Shown: in pieces, positions 44,700 through 51,395 of the stretch | Layout: the number at the start of each line of letters is the position of its first letter | Position numbering within the stretch: the stretch's first letter is position 1 | Source: Haloarcula vallismortis ATCC 29715 | GTDB lineage: Archaea; Halobacteriota; Halobacteria; Halobacteriales; Haloarculaceae | Assembly: GCF_000337775.1 (NCBI RefSeq) | Contig: NZ_AOLQ01000021.1 | Location: 1-64,000, forward strand | DNA: 64,000 nucleotides | Reading direction: 5' to 3' | Notes under the pieces: generated by a model | What the model was told of the DNA's origin: nothing | What the model saw: only the letters and a program-made list of their open reading frames with translations | Databases searched by the model: none | Position numbers and translations under genes: made by a program

Positions 44700-46796
44700 A
44701 TGGCGACCGCCGAGAACACCGAACTCATCGACCGCTTCGAGGAGTTCTACCGCAACTACTACCGCAACGAGATCGGTGAGCTCGCCCAGAAATACCCGAA
44801 CGACCAGAAGTCGCTGTACATCGACTGGGACGACCTCTATCGCTTCGACCCGGACCTGGCCGACGACTATCGGACGAAGCCCGAACAGATTCAGGAGTAC
44901 GCCGAGGAGGCCCTTCGACTGTACGACCTCCCGGTCGACGTCTCGCTCGGCCAGGCCCACGTCCGCGTCCGGAACCTTCCCGATTCGGAAGACATTCGTG
45001 ACCTGCGCCACGAGCACCACGGCAACCTCGTTGCCGTCAGAGGTATCATCCGGAAGGCGACCGACGTGCGCCCGAAGGTTATCGAGGCGGCCTTCGAGTG
45101 CCAGCGCTGTGGGACGCTCACGCGCATCCCTCAGACCGCCGGCGACTTTCAGGAACCACACGACTGTCAGGGCTGTGAACGGCAGGGGCCGTTCCGGCTC
45201 AACACCGACCAGTCCCAGTTCATCGACGCCCAGAAGCTCCGCGTGCAGGAATCTCCCGAGGGACTGCGCGGCGGGGAGACGCCCCAGTCAATCGATATCA
45301 ACATCGAGGACGACATCACGGGCCACGTCACCGCCGGTGACCACGTCCGCGTGACCGGCATCCTCAAACTCGACCAGCGGGGCAACGACAACGAGAAGTC
45401 CCCGATGTTCGATATCTACATGGAGGGCGTCAGCGTCGAAATCGAGGACGAGCAGTTTGAAGACATGGAGATCACCGATGCCGATAAAAAGGAAATCGTC
45501 GAACTCTCCAGCGAACCCGACATCTACGACAAGATGGTCGGGGCCATCGCCCCCTCCATCTACGGCTACGAGAAGGAGAAGCTCGCGATGATGCTCCAGC
45601 TCTTCTCGGGCGTGACCAAGGAGCTACCTGATGGCTCTCGGATACGTGGTGACCTCCATATGTTGCTGATAGGGGACCCAGGAACCGGGAAATCTCAGAT
45701 GCTATCATATATCGAGAATATCGCACCCCGCTCTGTCTACACCTCTGGTAAAGGCTCATCAAGCGCGGGGCTTACCGCGGCCGCCGTCCGCGACGACTTC
45801 GGCGACGGCCAGCAGTGGACGCTGGAAGCGGGCGCGCTCGTGCTCGCAGATCAGGGCATCGCCGCTATCGACGAACTCGATAAGATGTCCCCAGAAGACC
45901 GGTCGGCGATGCACGAGGCGCTGGAGCAGCAGCGCATCAGCGTCTCGAAGGCCGGAATCAACGCGACGCTCAAATCCCGCTGTTCGCTGCTGGGCGCGGC
46001 CAACCCCAAGTACGGCCGCTTCGACCAGTACGAACCCATCGGCGAGCAGATCGACCTCGAACCGGCGCTCATCTCCCGGTTCGACCTCATCTTCACCGTG
46101 ACGGACAAGCCCGACGAGGAGAAAGACCGCAACCTCGCCGAGCACATTATCCAGACCAACTACGCCGGTGAACTCCACACGCATCGGACGGAGAACCCGA
46201 CCTCGAACTTCAGCGAGGAGGAAGTCGGGACCGTCACTGAGGAGGTCGCGCCGACCATCGAGCCGGACCTCCTCCGGAAGTACGTCGCCTACGCAAAGCG
46301 TAACTGCTTCCCGACGATGACCGAGGAGGCGAAATCGCGCATTGAGGACTTCTACGTCGACCTGCGGCTCAAGGGGCAGGACGAGGACGCGCCGGTACCG
46401 GTCACCGCCCGGAAACTGGAGGCGCTGGTCCGGCTTGCCGAGGCGTCTGCCCGGATTCGGCTGTCGGACACTGTCGACGAGGCTGACGCTGACCGGGCGG
46501 TCGACATTGCCCATTACTGCCTGAAGGAGATCGGTGTCGACCCCGAGACTGGCGAGTTCGACGCCGACGTGGTCGAGACCGGCCAGTCGAAGACTCAGCG
46601 CGACCGCATCCAGAACATCAAGGGCATCATCTCGGACATCGAGGACGAGTACGACGAGGGCGCACCCGCCGACGTGGTCATCGAGCGTGCAGAGGAGGTC
46701 GGTATCGACGAGTCGAAGGCCGAACACGAGATCGACAAGCTGAAACAGAAAGGCGAGGTGTACGAGCCCCGCACCGACCACCTCCGAACGACCTGA
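44700..46796 (+). CDS. mcm: MCM replicative helicase
   Basis: The archaeal MCM helicase, 698 residues. N-terminal domain with zinc-binding cysteines (CQRCG ... CQGCE near 128-160) and OB fold, then the AAA+ domain with Walker A GDPGTGKS (325-332), Walker B region IAAIDELDKM, the arginine finger region ISRFDLIF, and a C-terminal winged helix. No intein is present. The stretch 45621-45778 around Walker A and the TSGKGSSSAGLT block uses A/T-ending codons far more than its surroundings, although the protein is normal. It diverges from the BMP lipoprotein gene, and a small gene follows one base after its stop. Confidence 0.95.
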   Translation: MATAENTELIDRFEEFYRNYYRNEIGELAQKYPNDQKSLYIDWDDLYRFDPDLADDYRTKPEQIQEYAEEALRLYDLPVDVSLGQAHVRVRNLPDSEDIRDLRHEHHGNLVAVRGIIRKATDVRPKVIEAAFECQRCGTLTRIPQTAGDFQEPHDCQGCERQGPFRLNTDQSQFIDAQKLRVQESPEGLRGGETPQSIDINIEDDITGHVTAGDHVRVTGILKLDQRGNDNEKSPMFDIYMEGVSVEIEDEQFEDMEITDADKKEIVELSSEPDIYDKMVGAIAPSIYGYEKEKLAMMLQLFSGVTKELPDGSRIRGDLHMLLIGDPGTGKSQMLSYIENIAPRSVYTSGKGSSSAGLTAAAVRDDFGDGQQWTLEAGALVLADQGIAAIDELDKMSPEDRSAMHEALEQQRISVSKAGINATLKSRCSLLGAANPKYGRFDQYEPIGEQIDLEPALISRFDLIFTVTDKPDEEKDRNLAEHIIQTNYAGELHTHRTENPTSNFSEEEVGTVTEEVAPTIEPDLLRKYVAYAKRNCFPTMTEEAKSRIEDFYVDLRLKGQDEDAPVPVTARKLEALVRLAEASARIRLSDTVDEADADRAVDIAHYCLKEIGVDPETGEFDADVVETGQSKTQRDRIQNIKGIISDIEDEYDEGAPADVVIERAEEVGIDESKAEHEIDKLKQKGEVYEPRTDHLRTT
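45621..45778 (+). other. Codon-usage island inside mcm at the MCM intein sites
   Basis: By hand count about 25 of 52 codons here end in A or T (for example cta, ata, tca, tct, aaa). The 27 codons just upstream (45540-45620) have none, and the downstream codons again end mostly in G or C. The protein sequence is unchanged in character, so only synonymous or near-synonymous changes are involved. The patch runs from just before Walker A through the GKGSSSAGLT block. Confidence 0.85.
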
Positions 46797-46797
46797 T

Positions 46798-47070
46798 ATG
46801 GACCGTATTTCCGCACTCCGTAACATCGAGGAGGCGCTGGCCGACTTCGAGGCCGGGTCGAAGTCGCTCGGCGATCTCGAACGGGACGTTCGCGGGACCC
46901 TCCGGACCTACGCGACTGAGTTCGAGGGTGACCTGCAGGCCTACCGGGCAACCGGCGGAGCCGCCGTTGACGGGCTCGTCGTCCTTGCGCCGTCCGAGAC
47001 AGCAGCCCGCGAACGGGTTCGGGACCTCGTTTCGGACGTCGGGGAATTTACCGTTACAGCCGTCGAGTAA
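46798..47070 (+). CDS. Small helical protein following mcm, unknown function
   Basis: A 90-residue acidic protein (DRISALRNIEEALADFEAGSKSLGDLERDVRGTLRTYATEF) with an alpha-helical N-terminus and a C-terminal alpha/beta part ending VTAVE. It starts one base after the mcm TGA, so the two are almost certainly co-transcribed and perhaps co-translated. No known domain is recognised. Constant proximity to MCM suggests a link to replication but this is not proven. Confidence 0.7.
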   Translation: MDRISALRNIEEALADFEAGSKSLGDLERDVRGTLRTYATEFEGDLQAYRATGGAAVDGLVVLAPSETAARERVRDLVSDVGEFTVTAVE

Positions 47071-47235
47071 GGCGTTCTCTAGTACTGCAGTTTCTGTCGG
47101 TGTCCCCCACATCCTGTGCGCAGTGTTGACTCTCGAATACGACCCCCTATCTTTCTCACCGGTTCCAATATATATTCACTCTAAAGCACATTCAATTCAG
47201 TAAAATTTTATAGCAATAATAGCAATGTCTACCCA
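47071..47235. other. A/T-rich intergenic region ahead of the MinD operon
   Basis: The spacer is A/T rich from about 47165 to 47230 (tatatattcactctaaag and taaaattttatagcaat). It contains TATA-like sequences suitable for the promoter of the four-gene operon starting at 47236. No gene was found. Confidence 0.6.
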
Positions 47236-47571
47236 GTGCTACTCGTCGTCACGTACTCCCGGCCGGCACGCAGAGACCTGCGGAACGTCTGTCGTGCCCA
47301 CGAAGATTGTGTCGTTCGGCAGTTCGGGAGAGCAGCGCTGTTTTCCGGAACCGAGTTCGGGGCGTTTCAGGCGCTCCGGCTCCACGAGAAACACGGGCTT
47401 GACGTTCAGATTGAGCGTGTCGAGCCATTCGAACCGACAGATGCCCCGACGCACGTCCGTGAAGCGGCCAAACGGTACGAGTCGCGCGAGGAACCGGCGA
47501 CGCCCTACGAGCGGTTCGCGTCGGGACGTGACCTCCCGGATCCGGACCAACTCCGAGGCGTCGACCTGTGA
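47236..47571 (+). CDS. Unknown protein, first gene of a four-gene operon
   Basis: A 111-residue protein starting at GTG 47236 (LLVVTYSRPARRDLRNVCRAH). The first half has a pattern of strands and a short helix; the second half is charged and rich in Arg/Glu. An ATG at 47225 is in a different frame. Its stop overlaps the next start (GTGA), so translation is coupled to the coiled-coil gene. I do not know the family, though I recall related genes in the same position in other haloarchaea. Confidence 0.68.
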   Translation: MLLVVTYSRPARRDLRNVCRAHEDCVVRQFGRAALFSGTEFGAFQALRLHEKHGLDVQIERVEPFEPTDAPTHVREAAKRYESREEPATPYERFASGRDLPDPDQLRGVDL

Positions 47572-48377
47572 AGCTCCGCATCGCTGGAACCACTTATACG
47601 GGTGCTGTCGTCGACCTCCGAACCCGAAACGTCGACGGTCGGACCATCGCCGCAAGTATCAGTGGACAGCGGTGCTTGCCAGTCGTCTCCTGCCCGGAAC
47701 CCCCGTCTGTGTACGCTTACGCCGGGCACATCCACTCGTCGATGGGACTGCGAACGCGGACTGCACTCGCGGCCGCCGCCCGGTCACGGGGATACGAAAC
47801 GCCGCAGGACGACGCTATCGCTGAGTGCCGCGCCCAGCTGGCCGAGCTCGAATGTTCGCCGCCGGAGCTACCGGCCCCTGTCGACCCGGTCCCGGAGTCG
47901 ACCATCGACGGCCTGCAGGAAGCGGTCGCGACCCATCGCGGTCGTCTCACCGCTCGGCAGGCGGTCGGGGCGGACGACGGGGCGGCACAGGCTGACCTCC
48001 GGGATGCGGCGACGGAACTGAGCGAACGGGAGACGCGTCGGGCTGCCGCCAGAGAGACCCGTGAACTCCGCCGGGAGCGGGCACGCGCCTACCGGGATTC
48101 GCTGGAGGAACAACGTCGGCTTGCCGACGAACTGGCCAACCTCCGGCGGAGCGCTCGGGCGACCCTCGTCGACCGATGCGCCGAGCCGTTCGCTCGGGCC
48201 ATCGAAGCTGTTCCGGGGCCGGACCCGGACAGCCCGCTCGACGCCGATCCAGTAACGGCCGCGCTGGGCGTGCTCCGGTTCGCGAAGACGCCCGCACCGG
48301 TCGTCCTCGGGGCGGATCGGTTCAGGTCGCCGACGGCTGCATCGGACTGTCTCGATGCCCCTGTCATCCGCTGCTGA
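47568..48377 (+). CDS. Coiled-coil protein, second gene of the operon
   Basis: A 269-residue protein starting at GTG 47568. An N-terminal beta-rich part (1-70) is followed by a long coiled coil (about 80-205) rich in Arg, Glu, Ala and Leu (RETRELRRERARAYRDSLEEQRRLADELANL), and a C-terminal short domain (about 215-269) that includes APVVLGADRF. The coiled coil probably makes a dimer or binds the operon's ATPase. No enzyme motif is seen. Confidence 0.68.
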   Translation: MKLRIAGTTYTGAVVDLRTRNVDGRTIAASISGQRCLPVVSCPEPPSVYAYAGHIHSSMGLRTRTALAAAARSRGYETPQDDAIAECRAQLAELECSPPELPAPVDPVPESTIDGLQEAVATHRGRLTARQAVGADDGAAQADLRDAATELSERETRRAAARETRELRRERARAYRDSLEEQRRLADELANLRRSARATLVDRCAEPFARAIEAVPGPDPDSPLDADPVTAALGVLRFAKTPAPVVLGADRFRSPTAASDCLDAPVIRC

Positions 48378-48409
48378 GGTTTAAATCAGAAGGCCGGGCC
48401 ACCGTCCCT

Positions 48410-49177
48410 ATGGTTACCTTCGACTGTCGCGCCGAGCGAGTCGACGGCGTGACGCTCGTCACGGCGACCGTCGGCGACGTTACCGAACCGACTCGAATCA
48501 CTGTTCGGAACTGTCTCGATGGCCCTCTCTGGCCGCCGAGAAAGCAGGGCGTTCCAGAGGCCGGCTGGACCGGGAACGGCTTCGAGGGCGTCGTCGGCCC
48601 GGGAACGCACGCGCTCGGGTACGCGACGCCGGCCCCACGATCTGACCAGCCGGCGGAGCTGGTGCGTGCCGAGCCGACGCCCGATACGCCCCCGGCGGAC
48701 GAGCGATTCGACTCCGCAGATGCCGTCCTCAGGGAACTGGGCGACCCGTCACCGCCTGCTGATGCTGTGCCTGCAGGCGAGCCGTCGCAGGCGGCCGAAG
48801 CCACGAGTCGGCGGTCGAATGAATCCACGGTCGAACAGGAGATGGACCCGCAGCGAGCGACCGTCAAATCGCCAGCAGAGTCGAGGACTGCGCCCGGCCA
48901 GCAGTCGGACCAGCGGCTCCCCGACGCTGTCTCGCAGTGGCTCGAAACCGTCGCTCGACGCGTCGACCGCGCAGAGCGGCTGGCTGAGGCGGACTCGCTG
49001 TCGGCGGCGACGGCTGCGGTTCGCGCAGCGGACGGCATTTCCGGCGTCCGGGCGGTTTCGGAACGCGGCGATACCGACGAACAAATGCTCCGGGCGCTGG
49101 CCCGGCGGGCCGAGCGGCTCGCCGACAGACGAGCAGCCGCCACGGTGCCGACCGAAACGCTCTCTCGCCTCGCATGA
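48410..49177 (+). CDS. Unknown protein, third gene of the operon
   Basis: A 255-residue protein with an N-terminal beta-rich domain (about 1-85: VTFDCRAERVDGVTLVTATVG and GYATPAP), an acidic, disordered linker (85-175), and a C-terminal helical segment (about 178-250) with SQWLETVARRVDRAERLAEAD. The N-terminal pattern is faintly like the second gene's N-terminus (both have strands and a Leu/Val core). The true start ATG 48410 is in the spacer after the preceding gene. Its stop overlaps the ATPase gene (ATGA). Confidence 0.65.
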   Translation: MVTFDCRAERVDGVTLVTATVGDVTEPTRITVRNCLDGPLWPPRKQGVPEAGWTGNGFEGVVGPGTHALGYATPAPRSDQPAELVRAEPTPDTPPADERFDSADAVLRELGDPSPPADAVPAGEPSQAAEATSRRSNESTVEQEMDPQRATVKSPAESRTAPGQQSDQRLPDAVSQWLETVARRVDRAERLAEADSLSAATAAVRAADGISGVRAVSERGDTDEQMLRALARRAERLADRRAAATVPTETLSRLA

Positions 49178-49890
49178 TTCTGGCAGTCACCGGCGGCAAG
49201 GGCGGCGTCGGCAAGTCGACGATTGCGTACAATCTCGCGGCAGAACTCGATGGACTCGAACGGGCTGATAACAGGGGCTCGCTCTCGAACGCAAACGCGG
49301 GGAGCGTCGTCGTCGACGGCGACCTCGGGATGGCGGACCTCCCGTCCAGTCACGGTCCCGACCTGCACGATGTGCTCGCCGACCGCGCCGACCCACACGA
49401 GGCTGTCCGCGCAGACGGCCCCGTGACCCTCGTTCCCTGCGGACGGACGCTGGCCGGCGCTCGAAGTGCCGATTTGCAGGCCCTCACAGACGTATTCGCC
49501 GCGCTGGAGCGGACCTATCGCTGGGTCATCGTCGATTCACCGGCCGGCTTACACGCCGACGTGGGACTGCCCCTTGCAGCCGCCGACGCCGCGGTACTCG
49601 TCACGACACCGGAAGATGCGGCCCTCGCCGACGCGCTCCGGGTTCGGGCGCTGGCCCGTGAACTCGACGCCGGACTCTGTCGGGTCGTCCTCAACCGTGC
49701 AGGCCCAGACCCTGCGACTGAGGCCGTTGCGGATCGGTTCGGTGCGCCAGCCGTCGCAGTGCCGGAGAGCGAGCCGCTGGCGACGGCGCAGGCGCATGGA
49801 CAGCCGCTTCGAGAAACAGCGCCGGAAGCATCAGCCTGCAACTCGCTTGAAGCGCTTGTTGACGCCGTTTACTCCTGTAGCTCGGTGTAG
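49174..49890 (+). CDS. MinD/ParA-family ATPase
   Basis: A 238-residue deviant-Walker P-loop ATPase. The motif KGGVGKST is at residues 9-16, the Walker A' DGDLGMADL at about 49-57, and a switch II-like VDSPAGL at about 120. It lacks the C-terminal amphipathic membrane-targeting helix of true MinD, ending LEALVDAVYSCSSV. These ATPases position proteins on nucleoid or membrane. Together with the preceding coiled-coil proteins it may form a positioning or assembly system. It shares a 4-base overlap with the third gene and its 3' end overlaps the convergent tfb gene by 22 bases. Confidence 0.85.
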   Translation: MILAVTGGKGGVGKSTIAYNLAAELDGLERADNRGSLSNANAGSVVVDGDLGMADLPSSHGPDLHDVLADRADPHEAVRADGPVTLVPCGRTLAGARSADLQALTDVFAALERTYRWVIVDSPAGLHADVGLPLAAADAAVLVTTPEDAALADALRVRALARELDAGLCRVVLNRAGPDPATEAVADRFGAPAVAVPESEPLATAQAHGQPLRETAPEASACNSLEALVDAVYSCSSV

Positions 49891-50729
49891 GTCCCTCGTA
49901 ACGTGACCGGCGTTACGTCTGCTGTCTCTGCCGCTTCTGCCTGCGTGAGTGCTACGCCCTGCTCCTGGGCCGCGGTGTAGAGACACGCCGCCGCGACGCC
50001 GGCCGGGTTGCGCCCGCTGACCAGCCCACGGTCCTGTGCCACGTCGACGAGCCGTTCCGCACGCTGCCGGACTGCCGTCGGCAACTCCAGCGCCGTTGCA
50101 AACCGAGGGACGTACTCGCGGGGGTCAATCGGGCCAGTCGGAAGCCCGAGTTCCCTGTTCAGGGCGTCGTAGGCCGCGCGAAGCTCCGCCTGGGTCGCTT
50201 TGGCGACAGTACAGAGTTCGTCGACGGTCCGAGCAACGCCTTCCGTCCGGCAGGTGGCGTAGATGGCCGCGGCCGCGAAGCCTTCCAGCGTTCGCCCTTT
50301 GAGCAGGTCCTCGTTCTGTGCGGATTCGAACAGCACACACGCCCGGTCCCGGATGGCGTCCGAGAGCGCCATCGAACTGATGATACGCCGGATCTCTGTG
50401 AAAGCGTACACCTTGTTTCGCTCGCGTTTCGAGCTGATCTGGGCGCGGTTGTGCTCGCGACGGAGGCGGGCGAACTGTCGGCGCTTGCGCCCTTTCAGCC
50501 GTGTCGACCGGCCAATCTTCGTCGAAAGACCGCGATCATGGCGCGACCGCGTCAACGGCGCGCCTGTCCGTGCTCGGTCAGTGTCATCATCACTGAACGA
50601 CCGCCACTCTGGGCCGGGGTCGATGGCATCCTCGCCGACGACCAACCCACAGCCGCTACAGACCGATTCGACGCCTTGCTGTTTGACTGACCCGTTACAC
50701 TCCGGACATTGCGTTACCGTCGTGCTCAT
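49869..50729 (-). CDS. tfb: Transcription initiation factor TFB
   Basis: The archaeal TFIIB homologue, 286 residues, which binds TBP and recruits RNA polymerase. An N-terminal zinc ribbon (Cys8, Cys11, Cys24, Cys27), then a B-reader/linker region with a basic segment (RSTRLKGRKRRQFARLRREHNRAQ), and two cyclin-fold repeats (about 100-190 and 195-286) ending VTLRGTYTELQE. Haloarchaea have several TFBs with differing promoter choice; which one this is cannot be told. The 3' end overlaps the ParA/MinD-like gene by 22 bases. Confidence 0.92.
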   Translation of the reverse strand: MSTTVTQCPECNGSVKQQGVESVCSGCGLVVGEDAIDPGPEWRSFSDDDTDRARTGAPLTRSRHDRGLSTKIGRSTRLKGRKRRQFARLRREHNRAQISSKRERNKVYAFTEIRRIISSMALSDAIRDRACVLFESAQNEDLLKGRTLEGFAAAAIYATCRTEGVARTVDELCTVAKATQAELRAAYDALNRELGLPTGPIDPREYVPRFATALELPTAVRQRAERLVDVAQDRGLVSGRNPAGVAAACLYTAAQEQGVALTQAEAAETADVTPVTLRGTYTELQE

Positions 50730-50900: not shown

Positions 50901-51395
50901 ATGACGTTGTCGGATATCGCTGCCGGTGTCGAGGTCACGACCCACCAGCGTGACCACGGCGTCGCTGCTGTCGACGAGACGGACGCGCCGCTCCCGGAGC
51001 GACTGGCCCCTGTGGCCGACGACCTCCCGTGTTCGGCGGCGACGGCGGCGACCGTCGTCGAGGCCTACGCAGCCGGCAGGAGCGTCGGCGACGCGGGCCG
51101 CGCCGCTGGCGTTGCGCCTGTGATGGCCGCCAAGACGCTCCATCTCGTCGGCGAGCAAGTGTCACCCGTCGGCCCGCAGGGCCGTGAGATAATCGCCGAT
51201 TGGCTTGCCGGGGACCTCTCCCGCAGTGACGCGATTACACTCGCTGGCGTGACTGAACAGGAGTTTGCCCTGGCTGCGTACATCGAGACGCACGAGCCGT
51301 TGCCCGCGGCCCGCGATGCGGTGGAGGGTGCACTTACGACTGAGGAACGAGACCCGTTAGGAGAGACGATGAGCGATGTCGGCGACCTGCTGTGA
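50901..51395 (+). CDS. Helix-rich haloarchaeal protein, unknown function
   Basis: A 164-residue protein with mainly alpha-helical content and a helix-turn-helix-like segment (AATVVEAYAAGRSVGDAGRAAGVAP, about 48-74) followed by more helices (AVEGALTTEERDPLGE). It could bind DNA. ATG 50901 follows a run of A/T without an obvious leader. It is divergent from tfb. No family is recognised; I recall a similarly placed gene in other haloarchaea. Confidence 0.65.
   Translation: MTLSDIAAGVEVTTHQRDHGVAAVDETDAPLPERLAPVADDLPCSAATAATVVEAYAAGRSVGDAGRAAGVAPVMAAKTLHLVGEQVSPVGPQGREIIADWLAGDLSRSDAITLAGVTEQEFALAAYIETHEPLPAARDAVEGALTTEERDPLGETMSDVGDLL

Follow-up and report, generated by a model that had tools for sequence, protein, structure and literature searches.

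Which genes make up the block that ends in a ParA/MinD ATPase between mcm and the TFIIB-like tfb gene of Haloarcula vallismortis ATCC 29715, and could their products work together as one system? The locus lies in a 64,000-nucleotide stretch of contig NZ_AOLQ01000021.1, which was analysed as a whole and is called the window here. An earlier note on this DNA had proposed four same-strand open reading frames at 47236-47571, 47568-48377, 48410-49177, and 49174-49890, with an A/T-rich stretch 5' of the first gene. Both statements are borne out by the sequence, and all four frames are on the plus strand. The features of the locus are as follows.

44700..46796, plus strand: mcm, replicative helicase gene, a neighbour of the block.
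46798..47070, plus strand: DUF7854 (PF25252; Pfam E 4.3e-35), a neighbour between mcm and the block.
47207..47212, plus strand: TATA box TTTATA, 29 nt 5' of the GTG start of DUF7855, read from the sequence.
47236..47571, plus strand: DUF7855 (PF25253; Pfam E 1.8e-49), 111 aa.
47568..48377, plus strand: DUF7856 (PF25254; Pfam E 7.4e-65), 269 aa.
48380..48385, plus strand: internal TATA box TTTAAA, 30 nt 5' of the ATG of DUF7857.
48410..49177, plus strand: DUF7857 (PF25256; Pfam E 3.4e-31), 255 aa.
49174..49890, plus strand: MinD1, ParA/MinD deviant Walker A ATPase, 238 aa, with PF10609 and PF01656 above cut-off.
49869..50729, minus strand: TFB (TFIIB-like; Pfam PF00382), a convergent neighbour.
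50901..51395: DUF7858, an uncharacterised haloarchaeal family, by Pfam.

The block was previously placed directly after mcm, which is wrong, as DUF7854 (46798-47070) and then a promoter region intervene. DUF7854 begins 1 nt past the mcm stop codon, is separated from the four genes by that promoter region, and is a neighbour outside the four-gene system. The statement that the block lies before tfb holds insofar as tfb adjoins it, but it is encoded on the minus strand, converging on the block, and overlaps the stop region of MinD1. In most loci, DUF7858 comes after the tfb gene.

As judged from the sequence, the block is composed of two translationally coupled pairs, DUF7855-DUF7856 and DUF7857-MinD1, each with its own TATA box of leaderless type. 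The GTGA (47568-47571) and ATGA (49174-49177) overlaps described earlier are both present and are kept across genomes. At the DUF7855/DUF7856 junction, 82 of 128 loci have a spacing of precisely -4 nt, and 105 of 112 have it at the DUF7857/MinD1 junction. The junction between DUF7856 and DUF7857 is a 32-nt gap in the window, not an overlap, and typically measures about 25-33 nt across loci. Since this gap between the second and third genes carries a conserved TATA box, the idea of a single coupled operon has to be abandoned.

Conservation of the boxes was assessed by searching for an exact TTTAWR at positions -34 to -24 relative to the start codon, and the expected numbers were obtained by shuffling the upstream sequences themselves. 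The motif precedes DUF7857 in 70 of 110 distinct loci (0.21 expected) and DUF7855 in 34 of 120 (1.8 expected); these loci share descent, so the counts are not independent. As internal controls, no motif was found before DUF7856 (0/119 loci) or MinD1 (0/105). A further 26 DUF7857 loci, mostly relocated, have the exact box in 13 cases and near-variants in most of the others. A spacing of about 30 nt between box and start codon fits leaderless transcription in haloarchaea. The putative transcription start of the first pair would thus be of leaderless type at the DUF7855 start, and the box at 48380..48385 is a predicted separate promoter, also leaderless-type, for DUF7857-MinD1. Together, the two conserved boxes suggest two transcription units.

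The deviant Walker A motif noted before is confirmed as GKGGVGKST. Among 54 MinD1 orthologs, the KGGxGK[ST]T motif with its signature lysine is present as GKGGVGKS/T, and K9, G13, K14, D48, and D121 are invariant. The protein matches PF10609 with 45.7 bits (cut-off 27.1) and PF01656 with 34.6 bits (cut-off 25.4). The archaeal MinD model TIGR01969 gives 116.8 bits, below its cut-off of 201.75, and is still the best hit in that library. The best solved relatives are the archaeal MinD structures 1hyq, 1g3q, and 1ion, after which FleN and FlhG are ranked. In a tree, MinD1 orthologs form one clade apart from the MinD paralogs of the window genome itself, and in a profile search the orthologs mostly reach about 250-350 bits, with a few below that, as against at most 154 for paralogs. 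The C-terminal residues are variable, and inspection of the 54 orthologs revealed no conserved amphipathic motif; MinD1 thus appears to have no recognisable C-terminal membrane-targeting helix. In several genomes of genus g17 (e.g., G132, G186, and G008), the MinD1 matches contain one in-frame stop. These stops, in Halorubrum-type matches, may reflect matches that overrun the true C-terminus.

Two other readings of such an ATPase must be weighed here. PF10609, the best Pfam match, is described as the NUBPL iron-transfer P-loop NTPase, which would suit a carrier of metal or metal clusters of the Mrp/ApbC/NUBPL type. However, C89 is the sole invariant cysteine in the 54 orthologs, so there is no conserved CxxC, the NCBIfam Mrp/ApbC models reach only about 32-35 bits against cut-offs of 348-450, and the solved relatives are MinD and FleN. 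We consider such a carrier very unlikely. A match of MinD1 to the phage ParA-like profile phrog_164 (E 8.6e-15) could similarly hint that the block came from a mobile element, as a module for partition or defence. This idea is hardly credible in view of the chromosomal core position and usually single copy of the block. Moreover, none of the four proteins matches the defence library, DUF7855, DUF7856, and DUF7857 match no phage family, and no ParB-like partner was detected with Pfam or NCBIfam.

The gene is already named in a model haloarchaeon. In Haloferax volcanii, mcm is HVO_0220 (PMC3972481), MinD1 is HVO_0225 (PMC11588486, PMC11621097), and TFB is HVO_0226 (PMC13286277); exactly four tags remain between mcm and MinD1, one each for DUF7854 to DUF7857. 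On the basis of synteny and locus numbering, we assign the ATPase of the block to HVO_0225, the MinD1 of H. volcanii, as its ortholog. PF25253, PF25254, and PF25256 all match the H. volcanii control genome, and the same block was seen directly in Haloferax larsenii and Haloferax elongans (loci L112 and L117). The description of the block as an undescribed system therefore fails for its ATPase, which is known as MinD1 (PMC11588486, PMC11621097). Deletion of all four minD genes in H. volcanii leaves division and growth unaffected (PMC11588486); in swimming, the quadruple deletion strain resembles the minD2/4 double mutant (PMC11621097).

Conservation was surveyed in 242 halobacterial genomes from 74 genera, and gene order was examined in 130 neighbourhoods. 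All four genes occur in 137 of the 242 genomes and none in 53; DUF7855 was counted in 155 genomes and 48 genera. The order DUF7855-DUF7856-DUF7857-MinD1 is the rule in the 130 neighbourhoods, across most haloarchaeal genera. It persists even at loci that lack a nearby mcm, tfb, or both, so that the neighbourhood check proposed in the earlier note came out in favour of a conserved set. In the phylum sample, neither DUF7855 nor MinD1 was found outside the order Halobacteriales, and DUF7857 gave one sub-threshold match only. In L177, L185, and L191, mcm matches the MCM profile in two pieces about 1.3-1.5 kb apart, a pattern suggestive of an inserted intein.

Most genomes have the block between mcm and tfb, and mcm adjoins it in most, not all, loci. 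This proximity would be meaningful if MinD1 were a regulatory switch, either a FleN/FlhG-like anti-activator or a replication regulator, with DUF7857 as its effector. FleN and FlhG do stand among the solved relatives, behind archaeal MinD, and TFB HVO_0226 has been discussed in connection with layered control over cell shape and motility (PMC13286277). On the other hand, many genomes retain the block at a distance from mcm and/or tfb, so proximity is unnecessary. Pfam and NCBIfam recognise no DNA-binding domain in the four proteins, and loss of all four minD genes leaves growth and division unchanged (PMC11588486). A regulatory switch is therefore unlikely in our judgement.

MinD1 occurs in 174 of the 242 genomes, and DUF7857 accompanies it in all 174, of which 172 were detected by Pfam search and two, the weak cases G128 and G228, were counted via a local model. 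Wherever both genes were examined, DUF7857 lies immediately 5' of MinD1, including every relocated MinD1 locus examined. The pair is retained without DUF7855-DUF7856 in 33 genomes, mostly of one family, which indicates that DUF7857-MinD1 is the core. In three loci of that family (L177, L178, and L180), the pair still lies between mcm and tfb, which fits loss of DUF7855 and DUF7856 at the ancestral site and later relocation in its other members. Conversely, about 5-6 genomes have DUF7857 without detectable MinD1, which makes the dependence one-directional. DUF7857 is the best candidate for a partner of MinD1, as the two genes are linked, translationally coupled, and almost always inherited together, and we propose that it is an obligate, lineage-specific one. 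The earlier note was right that a coiled-coil protein is encoded near the ATPase, but the proposed obligate partner is instead a predicted beta-sandwich protein.

Two observations were made at exceptional loci. Near the relocated DUF7857-MinD1 pair in L179, L182, and L184 (probably also in L183 and L188), a second ATPase gene lies on the opposite strand; it encodes a MinD-like domain fused to DUF7125, which has a weak KaiC-like match. At L040 (5203-6864, minus strand), a single open reading frame encodes a fusion of DUF7856 and DUF7857, in a genome from which MinD1 is missing. The fusion was set aside as evidence of interaction, since it was seen only once, the genome lacks MinD1, and loss of a stop codon may explain it.

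The first pair follows a rule of its own, as DUF7856 is never found without DUF7855 (149/149 genomes). Does this pair belong with the second? The two could be unrelated units in a stable neighbourhood, their order being due to inheritance and not to joint function. The separate promoter-like boxes agree with this, and so does the fact that the pairs are separable or lost independently: in addition to the genomes that keep only the second pair, eight keep DUF7855 (four of them together with DUF7856) without DUF7857-MinD1. Yet the four genes are adjacent in at least eight loci where mcm and tfb are both not nearby, and MinD1 is present in 139 of 149 genomes with DUF7856 compared to 35 of 93 that lack DUF7856 (Fisher p 4e-21, uncorrected for relatedness).

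Evolutionary rates bear on the same question. Rate covariation was calculated for 76 loci with MCM, TFB, and DUF7858 distances regressed out, a procedure that removes shared ancestry only partly. Values of 0.24-0.28 were obtained for DUF7855-DUF7856, DUF7855-MinD1, DUF7856-DUF7857, DUF7856-MinD1, and DUF7857-MinD1. DUF7856 covaries with DUF7857 at 0.28 and with MinD1 at 0.26, which argues against unrelated units. The value for DUF7855-DUF7857 was 0.09, and the neighbour DUF7854 gave 0.04-0.16 with the four genes. Rate covariation thus lends modest support to a joint function of the four genes. We regard two unrelated units as a serious, though rather improbable, alternative to a joint function.

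Predicted structures were used to characterise the three partners. The AlphaFold model of DUF7855 (mean pLDDT 96) has a beta-alpha-beta-beta-alpha-beta arrangement in ferredoxin-like order, and 17 residues are invariant among 63 sequences. DUF7856 and DUF7857 were modelled in one chain from the relative L092, with the stop codon (TGA) of DUF7856 read through. This fused model has a mean pLDDT of 90 and a pTM of 0.57, so the placement of the two proteins relative to each other is not reliable. DUF7856 is predicted to contain an N-terminal beta domain, a long helical hairpin, one helix of which spans 77 residues, and a small C-terminal alpha/beta part. For DUF7857, the model predicts an N-terminal beta-sandwich, a disordered linker with pLDDT <50, and three C-terminal helices; the protein carries a conserved LGDxxPPxDAVP segment. 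The coiled coil, beta-domain, and disordered linker anticipated from the sequence are hence supported by AlphaFold. DUF7855 and DUF7856 have a pI of about 6.1, compared to a median of 4.55 for the 59 called genes of the window. This could reflect nucleic-acid contact; such a pI is not exceptional in the window, where 12 of 59 genes reach 6.0.

Searches for relatives of these proteins gave no function. Sequence profiles of DUF7855, DUF7856, and DUF7857 found no significant relative in a solved-structure library, and Foldseek returned no match at E 0.001 for their models, DUF7855 showing weak matches to the ferredoxin-like fold class. A Cas2/VapD-like nuclease was considered for DUF7855 and rejected, as fold hits had E 0.03 and weaker and the place of the catalytic Asp is taken by a conserved Tyr-Ser (Y7 S8), with no Asp. 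In Cas2/VapD, this Asp follows the first strand. An SMC-like identity of DUF7856 was likewise dismissed, with Foldseek hits to SMC heads at E 0.05 and weaker and haloarchaeal SMC N- and C-lobe profiles below 1% probability. No known function, unrelated or otherwise, came to light for the three partners. In the papers searched, we found no mention of HVO_0222-0224, DUF7854-7857, the two-unit structure, or the pairing.

Considering these data, we favour, with a probability of roughly 55%, a reading in which MinD1 is a ParA/MinD switch, DUF7857 its dedicated partner, and DUF7855-DUF7856 an associated scaffold pair, the whole exerting spatial or assembly control over a cargo. MinD1 would act as an ATP-dependent dimer switch of the ParA/MinD type; its nucleotide-site residues are kept, and its family membership leads one to expect a dimer cycle that depends on ATP. 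DUF7857, translated by coupling just before MinD1, would be its partner or adaptor. Its beta-sandwich or terminal helices may contact MinD1, and the linker may tie DUF7857 to something else. DUF7855-DUF7856 would be the other coupled unit, in which a small ferredoxin-like protein is combined with a long helical-hairpin scaffold; it would usually work with DUF7857-MinD1 but be dispensable. As no C-terminal membrane helix is recognisable, MinD1 most likely cycles on DNA or a protein scaffold, not on the membrane. By analogy with its ATPase family, MinD1 may position a putative cargo or control its assembly. The analysis itself shows the gene content, its conservation, the two conserved boxes, the pairing, the intact nucleotide-binding motifs, and the predicted folds; contact between the proteins, a cycle driven by ATP, anchoring on nucleoid or protein, and the cargo are inferences. 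Counting against the scheme are the normal division and growth of the quadruple mutant, the genomes that have DUF7857 but no detectable MinD1, and the MinD1 score well below the archaeal MinD cut-off. The lack of a published MinD1 phenotype would mean either that the role is conditional or that it lies in traits outside published assays.

How does this scheme compare to known systems? The closest case is the MinD1 (HVO_0225) locus of H. volcanii, which by inference is the same gene, with the partner families present in that genome. MinD2, encoded with HVO_0596, and MinD4 are haloarchaeal paralogs like MinD1, and a conserved protein encoded in the operon of MinD2 is its predicted binding partner (PMC11588486). 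In H. volcanii, MinD2 and MinD4 affect motility, whereas MinD1 has no known role and its orthologs form a separate clade. With bacterial MinCDE, MinD1 shares the MinD-fold deviant Walker ATPase, but its match to the bacterial MinD model TIGR01968 is weak (65.6 bits, far below the cut-off of 212.9), and no relative of MinC or MinE was found among the three partners by Pfam or NCBIfam. ParABS, McdAB, and similar systems also combine, within one operon, the genes for an ATPase and for a small partner that has disordered and helical portions. The MinD1 block differs from them in having no ParB or other known partner domain by Pfam or NCBIfam, and the predicted beta-sandwich of DUF7857 has no recognised counterpart in profile and fold searches.

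MinD proteins are abundant in euryarchaea, yet no partner equivalent to MinE is known (PMC11621097). A bolder version of our preferred reading, which we put forward only tentatively, is that DUF7857-MinD1 might constitute an archaeal two-protein spatial-patterning module that organises the DUF7855-DUF7856 scaffold on the nucleoid, with partners unrelated to those of MinCDE, ParABS, or McdAB. Going by the models, DUF7857 would then represent a non-homologous class of partner, consisting of beta-sandwich, linker, and helix bundle.

The name of the ATPase, MinD1, and the catalogue entries of its partner families as DUFs were already known. New are the two-unit architecture with its conserved internal promoter-like box, the DUF7857-MinD1 pairing rule with its exceptions, the distribution of the four genes, and the predicted folds of the three partners. 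Given DUF7857 and DUF7855-DUF7856, minD1 mutants alone should be interpreted with caution. By identifying DUF7857 as the constant companion of MinD1, and by dividing the locus into two units with promoter-like boxes of their own, these results turn the function of MinD1 into a testable question.
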